NCBI GenBank assembly: GCA_011620305.1
Contig: WOZL01000033.1
Location: forward strand, 1-12,845
Direction of reading: 5' to 3'
Source of the DNA: Candidatus Dojkabacteria bacterium
GTDB taxonomy: Bacteria; Patescibacteriota; Dojkabacteria; SC72
DNA: 12,845 nt
Under the pieces are notes generated by a model. The model saw only the letters and a list, made by a program, of their open reading frames with translations. It was not told the origin of the DNA and did no database searches. Positions 10,868 through 12,737 of this stretch are shown here, piece by piece (positions within the stretch are counted from its first letter, which is position 1; each line of letters opens with the position of its first letter). The position numbers and the translations under genes were made by a program.

Positions 10868-12004
10868 ATGGCAGAAAAAAAGAAAACAGTCTCAAAGAAC
10901 ACTAAGACTGAAAACAAGAGTGTTCAAATACCAGAACTTATAGAATTTCTTAAAGCAGGTGCCCACTTTGGTCACAAGACTAGTGCGTGGAATCCTAAAA
11001 TGAAAGAATATATCTATGAGGAAAGAAATGGTGTACATATAATCGATTTGGTTAAATCTCGAGCTCTACTTGAAAAAGCACTTGATGCAATTCAAAAGGC
11101 CTCAAATAAAGGATATATCCTCTTTGTAGGTACTAAAGGACAAGCTGCAACCATTATTCAAAAGAAAGCAGAAGAGGTTGGTGCCTTCTATGTTAACCAA
11201 AGGTGGCCAGGTGGACTATTTACTAACTTTGATATTCTCAAAAAGAGTGTAAACAATTTAATAAAGATGGAAGAAGAACTAGCAAGAGGTGGAGAAAATT
11301 TAGTTAAAAAGGAAGTCTTAATGCTTGAAAGAGATGTTGAGAGATTAAATAGAGTGTATGAAGGTATCAAGTTTATGGATAAACTACCTTCCTTAATGAT
11401 TGTCATTGATAGTAAGGTAGAGGATATCGCTATAAAAGAGGCTAGAATTGCTGGAGTACCAACAGTAGCATTAATTGATACTAACTGTAATCCAGAACTA
11501 GTTGACTATCCTGTCCCAGCCAATGATGACTCACTAAAAAGTATTTCTTTGTACGTAGATCTTTTCGGAAAGGCGGTTGACCTAGGTAAGAAGTCTGAGG
11601 GATTAATTGCATTAAGAAAGAATCATAAAGCAAATTTAAAGAGATTAAGAGAAGAATATTTGGCTGAAGAGGAGAGAAAGGCACGAATGGAGGAGCAAGA
11701 GAGACGAAGAATGAAAGCTATGAGAGAAGGAAAAGTCACAAAGGAGGGTTCAACTGGAGTTGTAAGAGTAGTTAAGAAAGAGAAAAATATCGAGGATGAT
11801 ATTAAGGCAGCTGAAGCTGTTAAAGCTCAAAAAGATGCAACTAAAATCGAGGAGTTAAAACTAAGTACAAGAACAGAGAATGCTCTTAAAGATGCAGGTA
11901 TTAAGAATGTAGAAGGTTTAAGTGGAAAGAAGAAAGAAGAACTAAAAGAAATTAAGGGAATAGGAGAGAAGTCTGCAGAAGAGATTTTAGATGCAATAAA
12001 ATAA
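10868..12004 (+). CDS. rpsB: 30S ribosomal protein uS2 with C-terminal RNA polymerase alpha-CTD-like domain
   Basis: A 378-residue protein; bacterial S2 is usually about 230-260. Residues 20-237 are a normal S2 core, with AGAHFGHKTSAWNPKM at 30-45, VNQRWPGGLFTNF at 109-121 and VPTVALIDTNCNPELVDYPVPAND at about 197-220 (the C of which is unusual). An extension of about 140 residues follows: a highly charged, probably helical stretch (about 250-325), then residues 327-377, which match the RNA polymerase alpha C-terminal domain. Numbered against E. coli alpha, offset by exactly 70 with no gap, R335, N338, G366, K368, S369 and E372 correspond to R265, N268, G296, K298, S299 and E302; only C269 is changed (A339). 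This is a helix-hairpin-helix fold, so other HhH relatives remain possible. The strong SD and 19-base gap to tsf fit the classic rpsB-tsf operon. Confidence 0.95.
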   Translation: MAEKKKTVSKNTKTENKSVQIPELIEFLKAGAHFGHKTSAWNPKMKEYIYEERNGVHIIDLVKSRALLEKALDAIQKASNKGYILFVGTKGQAATIIQKKAEEVGAFYVNQRWPGGLFTNFDILKKSVNNLIKMEEELARGGENLVKKEVLMLERDVERLNRVYEGIKFMDKLPSLMIVIDSKVEDIAIKEARIAGVPTVALIDTNCNPELVDYPVPANDDSLKSISLYVDLFGKAVDLGKKSEGLIALRKNHKANLKRLREEYLAEEERKARMEEQERRRMKAMREGKVTKEGSTGVVRVVKKEKNIEDDIKAAEAVKAQKDATKIEELKLSTRTENALKDAGIKNVEGLSGKKKEELKEIKGIGEKSAEEILDAIK

Positions 12005-12023: not shown

Positions 12024-12737
12024 ATGGGTAAGGTACAAGTTGAAGATATTAAAAAACTTAGAGCAAAGACATCTGCCGGTATGGCACTTTGTAAAGAAGC
12101 TTTAGAGAAATCTGATGGAGATATGCAGAAAGCTATAGAGTACATCAATGAGAGAAGCGATGTAATAGCTAGACTCCATAATCTTACAGGGGCAAAAATT
12201 GGTCTTTGTAAGTTAGCTCTAGAGGAAACTGAAAAGGACTTTGAGAAAGCAGTAGAGCTTATCAAAGAGAGAGGTTGGAATGAGCCAATAGAGCCAGAGT
12301 GTGAGAAAGGTAATGGTATCATAGATGCCTATCTACACGGCACAGATCAGAGGTTAGCATCCCTTGTTGAGGTAAAATGTAAAACTGATTTTGTAGCTAA
12401 AAACGAAGAGTTTAAAGAATTTGTTCATGAGCTATCTTTGCAGGTAGCAGCTATGAAGCCTAAATATGTTTCTAAAGATGATATTTCAGAAGAAGAGTTA
12501 GTTCAAATTAAAGAGACTTTCCTTAAAGAAACTCAAGCTGAGGGTAAACCAGAGGATATGATTTCAAAGATAGTAGAGGGGAAGTTAAATAAATATTATC
12601 AAGAGAATTGCTTACTAGAGCAGAAGTGGTTTAAAGATGAATCTAAAACAATGAGAAATCTTTTAGATGAAGCTACTACTAAGCTAGGTGAGCCACTTGA
12701 AGTTAGAAGGATTCTTTATTGGGAGTTTGGGAAATAA
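12024..12737 (+). CDS. tsf: Elongation factor Ts with two tandem N-terminal TS-N (UBA-like) domains
   Basis: A 237-residue nucleotide-exchange factor that recycles EF-Tu-GDP. The C-terminal core is clear, with KCKTDFVAKNEEF at residues 118-130 (the family TDFVAKN motif), and it is of the short type with one core subdomain, ending in EVRRILYWEFGK. The N-terminus is unusual: instead of one TS-N domain there are two, residues about 6-44 and 45-83, matching without gaps at a period of 39 (L12/L51, T16/T55, C23/C62, L27/L66, D33/D72, A37/A76, I41/I80, R44/R83). The first has TSAGMALCKEAL and the second TGAKIGLCKLAL. The ATG at 12024 is chosen over an in-frame TTG at 12015. No clear Shine-Dalgarno is seen; it lies 19 bases after rpsB and is closed by a terminator. 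Confidence 0.95.
   Translation: MGKVQVEDIKKLRAKTSAGMALCKEALEKSDGDMQKAIEYINERSDVIARLHNLTGAKIGLCKLALEETEKDFEKAVELIKERGWNEPIEPECEKGNGIIDAYLHGTDQRLASLVEVKCKTDFVAKNEEFKEFVHELSLQVAAMKPKYVSKDDISEEELVQIKETFLKETQAEGKPEDMISKIVEGKLNKYYQENCLLEQKWFKDESKTMRNLLDEATTKLGEPLEVRRILYWEFGK

Follow-up and report, generated by a model that had tools for sequence, protein, structure and literature searches.

The rpsB gene of a Candidatus Dojkabacteria bacterium encodes a ribosomal protein uS2 (S2) of 378 amino acids, which ends in a domain of the family of the C-terminal domain of the RNA polymerase alpha subunit (alpha-CTD). The gene lies in a stretch of 12,845 nucleotides (assembly GCA_011620305.1, contig WOZL01000033.1, forward strand), which is referred to as the window. 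We conclude that the fusion of S2 with an alpha-CTD is real, conserved and apparently undescribed; no account of such a fusion in S2 or in another ribosomal protein was listed by searches of the open-licence PMC literature, subscription papers not being covered by this search. uS2 is a universal protein, and a nucleic-acid domain of the transcription type is fixed on it here in a whole lineage, which adds a case of small-genome bacteria with a larger, not smaller, ribosomal part.

Assignment of the C-terminal part of S2 to the alpha-CTD family

The rpsB product is a genuine uS2, in that it exceeds the cut-offs of both uS2 profiles (26.1 bits for PF00318, 76.3 bits for TIGR01011) and has the uS2 fold. 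Beyond the uS2 core it carries about 137 further residues, which in the AlphaFold2 model form a helix of 45 residues, a flexible linker and the alpha-CTD-family domain. The gene is organised as follows:

10868..12004, + strand: rpsB, uS2 of 378 amino acids with a C-terminal extension, stop included (Ribosomal_S2 260.9 bits, TIGR01011 274.1 bits)
10937..11581, + strand: uS2 core domain, residues 24-238
11594..11728, + strand: arm, a predicted single long helix, residues 243-287 (AlphaFold2; ten-residue block means of the predicted local distance difference test, pLDDT, from 94 to 75)
11729..11821, + strand: flexible linker, residues 288-318, including a predicted helix from residue 308 (AlphaFold2 pLDDT)
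11759..11785, + strand: V-V-R-V-V-K-K-E-K motif in the linker, residues 298-306
11822..11998, + strand: alpha-CTD-family domain, residues 319-377 (PF03118)
11870..11872, + strand: R335, equivalent of alpha R265 (R in 30 of 30 S2 proteins)
11963..11971, + strand: G366-E367-K368 of the hairpin, with G366 and K368 as equivalents of alpha G296 and K298 (G in 30 of 30, K in 29 of 30)

A fusion of S2 with an alpha-CTD-like domain had been proposed in a first-pass annotation of the window, which was borne out by the Pfam search suggested there, in that residues 319-377 matched RNA_pol_A_CTD (PF03118) with 56.5 bits (E 2.3e-15, cut-off 23.8). The opposite result, a generic helix-hairpin-helix (HHH) profile clearly above alpha-CTD, did not occur: HHH_5 (PF14520) reached 30.8 bits on the whole protein, which is over its cut-off of 27, yet 25.7 bits below PF03118, and on the isolated residues 307-378 the alpha-CTD profile was ahead by 28.8 bits (61.9 bits versus 33.1 bits). 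A generic HHH domain was therefore ruled out. The NCBIfam RpoA models match the same stretch (best 1e-13), with scores far below the cut-offs for a complete RpoA, as a partial match should give, and a profile of 25 S2 tails found exclusively RpoA chains in the best 26 rows of a PDB search (E 2.4e-14). With phmmer, the tail matched the Thermus and Bacillus alpha-CTD (E 2.8e-8) and, weakly, the E. coli alpha-CTD 1lb2_B (E 0.081), with which 16 of 51 residues are identical. The ranges of the latter match, 8-58 in the query and 12-62 in the chain, are equal in length, which fits the earlier claim that residues 327-377 align without gaps to E. coli alpha at an offset of 70 (residue 327 starts at 11846, residue 378 ends at 12001).

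A structure search with the whole model covered the S2 core only, and the tail was therefore modelled and searched separately. Its separate model shows the alpha-CTD fold, and among the structure matches listed for it are entries that also contain Spx, CAP or sigma region 4. An alpha N-terminal domain is absent from the protein, the S2 core standing in its place. Since the PF03118 score lies well above those of the generic HHH models, we firmly assign the S2 tail, as judged from its sequence, to the alpha-CTD family. In the AlphaFold2 model, the linker has pLDDT block means of 40 (residues 291-310) and 50 (residues 311-320), and the domain is attached to uS2 by an arm that is predicted to be flexible, in agreement with the earlier suggestion of a module carried by a 30S protein. 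The 45-residue arm would reach about 65 angstroms, at 1.5 angstroms per residue. Within the linker motif, V299 and R300 are nearly invariant.

Distribution of S2 proteins with the domain

The phylum survey comprised 286 genomes, and its counts rest on the matches listed. The nearest named S2 relatives belong mostly to Candidatus Dojkabacteria (WS6), the closest one (L061) having 81% identity. Within the window's family, S2 was matched in 29 of 31 genomes and the domain in 28 of these 29, each also with a PF03118 match; 26 of the 28 carriers show it in one match (one with an internal stop) and two in two pieces, and the family genome with an S2 lacking the domain is G016. In the order's remaining families, nine of ten genomes have S2 and six of these nine the domain; the S2 without it are those of G034, G036 and G037. 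For the rest of the class, we found the domain in at least seven of the 42 genomes with S2 (G041, G043, G045, G048, G051, G054, G327), a count for which 15 of the 42 S2 were read directly and G054 was assigned from coordinates. Two of these, G045 (18.4 bits) and G048 (23.5 bits), lie below the Pfam cut-off for PF03118, yet reach 40-44 bits with the profile of the S2 tails.

Outside the class, like domains with 18-66 bits occur in six of 76 S2 tails (L161, L164, L175, L177, L178, L196); these 76 are not a random sample, some having been selected because of a long frame or a PF03118 match close by. With the G286 S2 tail as query, three S2 and one RpoA were matched, and among the 49 named loci of other bacteria that are the best matches after Dojkabacteria (L092-L140) no S2 tail exceeded 7 bits with the tail profile. 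PF03118 matches all 30 members of set A3 at E <=0.01. We conclude that the arrangement of S2, arm and alpha-CTD predates the window's family.

Three further observations concern S2 in these genomes. The V-R-V-V-K/S-K motif, which lies between arm and domain, is retained by the S2 of G016, G036 and G037 although these lack the domain. No S2 match was obtained in G004 and G007, whose assemblies consist of 3 and 2 contigs and are 94 and 95% complete. An apparent S2-EF-Ts fusion in G193 (L197) was rejected, as it represents an N-filled assembly gap read through in one frame.

Conservation of the domain and selection

We examined conservation in an alignment of 30 S2 proteins, which share 45 to 84% identity with the window S2 and consist of 25 tails from the window and the loci, 24 of them distinct, and five database proteins. 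The first-pass annotation had stated that six of the seven residues of the 265 determinant of alpha (R265, N268, C269, G296, K298, S299, E302) are kept. This holds for the window, in whose sequence R335, N338, A339, G366, K368, S369 and E372 were confirmed, but not for the S2 family, across which only the equivalents of R265, G296 and K298 are kept. At the N268 equivalent, 11 of the 30 proteins have N and 18 have K, the C269 equivalent is never C, the S299 equivalent is S in 8 and A in 22, and the E302 equivalent is E in 15. In 13 other S2 copies, the arginine equivalent to R265 is kept in seven. The 17 RpoA CTDs that were compared (16 of the phylum and that of E. coli) have R in 17, G in 17 and K in 16, and they likewise vary at positions 268 and 269, whereas S299 (14) and E302 (15) are better kept than in S2.

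In alpha, R265, G296 and K298 are among the positions that touch the DNA minor groove. The domain could instead pair with a protein partner, e.g. another alpha-CTD or a regulator, and leave nucleic-acid contact unused, which would be consistent with the protein-contact faces that alpha-CTD also has and with the Spx, CAP and sigma region 4 entries among the structure matches. We regard this as improbable, however, since R335, G366 and K368, which are invariant or nearly so, belong to the nucleic-acid face.

The ratio of nonsynonymous to synonymous substitution rates (dN/dS) of the domain was 0 to 0.15 in 10 of 11 pairs with a core identity of at least 0.86, compared to 0.02-0.10 for the core, and was not computable for the eleventh pair, the window and L061. 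For seven pairs at greater distance, the values were 0.10 to 0.33 in five. The pairs share sequences and are thus not independent. These low values indicate that purifying selection keeps the domain, though less tightly than the uS2 core. A selectively neutral appendage, retained by chance, is accordingly disfavoured; the absence of the domain in G016, G034, G036 and G037 would be in line with it, but the low dN/dS and the invariant residues among proteins of such divergence make it most improbable.

RpoA and the origin of the domain

PF01000 finds RpoA in 28 of the 31 family genomes, and none in the window's own assembly (G000), G024 and G030. The RpoA of G014 and G026 appear cut at contig ends, and a PF03118 match is present in every one of the 26 frames that are not cut. 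As the family RpoA retain their own CTD, the S2 domain is not the CTD of RpoA that has moved, and we reject a displacement onto S2 for the family. The question raised in the first-pass annotation, whether RpoA still has a CTD, can therefore be answered with yes for these 26 genes. The window's own assembly, which is 80.5% complete and split into 115 contigs, has no match to RNA_pol_A_bac, the RpoA N-terminal domain, anywhere, and this is most simply explained by an assembly gap. In G001, which belongs to the same genus as the window, we saw by eye rpsD, rpoA with its CTD and then rplQ.

A recent duplication from the organisms' own RpoA CTD is not supported either, seven RpoA CTDs of the window's order forming a clade apart from the S2 CTDs in a tree that is weak (60 rows, 57 columns, short alignment, no branch support values) and in which E. 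coli is nearest to the RpoA clade. More distantly in the class (G044, G047, G050, G053, G056), the RpoA frames have 231-276 amino acids and no CTD match among those listed, and S2 is likewise without a CTD match.

Related domains on bL21 and NusA

Like domains occur, as judged by their profile matches, on some other S2 and on bL21 and NusA elsewhere in the phylum. bL21 with a C-terminal alpha-CTD-family domain was found in two phylum genomes (L163, L166) and as the proteins P0047 and P0048, with PF03118 scores of 50.0-56.0 bits for L166, P0047 and P0048; a search with the bL21 tail matched two proteins, query included. In NusA, the domain follows the KH domains in L165 (PF03118 54.6 bits), L169, L237, L251, L254 and L257; genomes with such a NusA are G205, G207 and, within the class, G038, G045, G046 and G051. 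The R265-equivalent arginine is kept in all three bL21 rows and both NusA rows. In the window's family, the domain is absent from all of the 11 NusA tails read (L247 of the window and ten others). The NusA of G033 (L242) has an HHH-like end. A complementary distribution between S2 and NusA was looked for and not found, G038, G045 and G051 having both and G036 neither.

These findings bear on a coupling module of the kind inferred in the first-pass annotation, i.e. on an S2 domain that would bind DNA near the transcribing polymerase, or RNA polymerase (RNAP), NusA or sigma directly, and thereby tether the ribosome to transcription. Such a role is plausible by analogy, given the published E. coli interfaces: according to the review PMC6566652, uS2 lies in the interfaces of RNAP with 30S and of the collided expressome, where an alpha-CTD itself contacts 30S at uS9. 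The same kind of domain on NusA in the six genomes mentioned above would also agree with it. However, NusA of the window's family lacks the domain, domain-bearing bL21 belongs to the large subunit, away from the RNAP-30S interfaces, and the word uS2 is absent from two later coupling papers (PMC12820379, PMC10953045). We therefore assign to coupling only a minor share of the probability. A bolder version, which we consider unlikely as a whole, would be a Dojkabacteria 30S with a polymerase-type DNA hand, whose S2 alpha-CTD sits on A/T-rich DNA or on the polymerase beside the transcribed gene and keeps ribosome and template together without NusA/NusG. The module would then have been exchanged between S2, bL21, NusA and RpoA inside the phylum. 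If true, very small cells would possess a built-in transcription-translation coupling.

A possible tethered nucleic-acid-binding module

The conserved positions are among the minor-groove contacts of alpha, and we therefore favour a nucleic-acid-binding hand. We give about an even chance to the reading that the S2 domain is a tethered module which binds nucleic acid in the vicinity of the 30S mRNA-exit side. The long helix and the flexible linker would form an arm that holds the domain as a hand, and the hand would grip nucleic acid near that side. As both S2 and bL21 carry the module and are surrounded by RNA, we hold RNA to be a slightly more likely ligand than DNA, be it the mRNA leader or the part of 16S rRNA close to the 3' end; this is a judgement rather than a result. 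PMC10931766 places uS2 at the back of 30S, where head and body hinge, and describes it as required for bS1; for E. coli uS2, PMC6566652 gives a place in the RNAP-30S interface close to the mRNA exit, and in the first interface of the expressome. uS2 would presumably occupy the same positions in Dojkabacteria. One arginine offers a concrete, mutable handle on the question whether the ribosome itself can hold DNA, mRNA or polymerase.

Several observations weigh against the nucleic-acid-binding hand. The full 265 determinant of alpha is not conserved across the S2 family, four genomes of the order (G016, G034, G036, G037) have S2 without the domain, and in G016, G036 and G037 S2 stops shortly after the V-R-V-V motif.

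A replacement for a lost bS1 was rejected, as strong matches to the rpsA model, none of them above that model's cut-off, occur in at least 47 of 56 genomes, including that of the window (frame of 430 amino acids). The domain could also act in ribosome assembly or at the 3' end of 16S rRNA, binding pre-16S rRNA and partly offsetting missing 30S assembly factors. PMC12641178 reports era and rbfA as almost missing in Dojkabacteria, WWE3 and Saccharimonadia, and PMC10931766 describes uS2 as a late joiner of 30S. Nevertheless, in the sole Saccharibacteria S2 seen (L131) the tail has just 28 residues and no such domain, and the class-wide pattern is patchy, so that we find this role quite unlikely.

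Neighbouring features

Directly downstream of rpsB lies its usual operon partner:

12024..12737, + strand: tsf, EF-Ts (TIGR00116 165.9 bits, EF_TS 115.8 bits)

This EF-Ts has two tandem N-terminal UBA-like domains, EF-Ts_N and UBA_8 each matching two stretches, and the tsf frame after S2 in G016 (L141) has the same tandem look by eye. An Rfam search of the window revealed no S2 leader and three tRNA matches, located on the minus strand at 1-225, one of which (1-55) is cut by the window end.

Comparison with known systems

The closest comparison is the CTD of RNA polymerase alpha (PF03118), with which the S2 domain shares the profile, the predicted fold, the equivalents of R265, G296 and K298 and a flexible tether to a large machine. 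It differs in being carried by uS2 instead of the alpha N-terminal domain and in N268, S299 and E302 not being family-wide, and the relatives possess an RpoA with its own CTD besides. Compared to bacterial uS2 (TIGR01011, PF00318), the protein is distinguished by the extra residues of its extension. NCBIfam NF051451, the S2 'sunset domain variant', is likewise a named S2 class with an added part, but the window S2 scores 210.7 bits versus a cut-off of 710 and is thus not a sunset variant. The domain-bearing bL21 and NusA have the same kind of C-terminal domain on a different carrier, the NusA version being absent in the window's family. eL32 with an HHH domain (NF009401, PDB 9l94_Q), which we take to be haloarchaeal, also combines a ribosomal protein with an HHH-type domain and gives a weak sequence match; it belongs to the large subunit, however, its HHH is N-terminal, and the match is far weaker than that to alpha-CTD (16.4 bits; E 0.34). 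A parallel for an alpha-CTD-like domain outside RpoA is provided by the BREX protein PglW, in which, according to PMC12839542, an alpha-CTD-like helical domain serves as a nucleic-acid-binding part.
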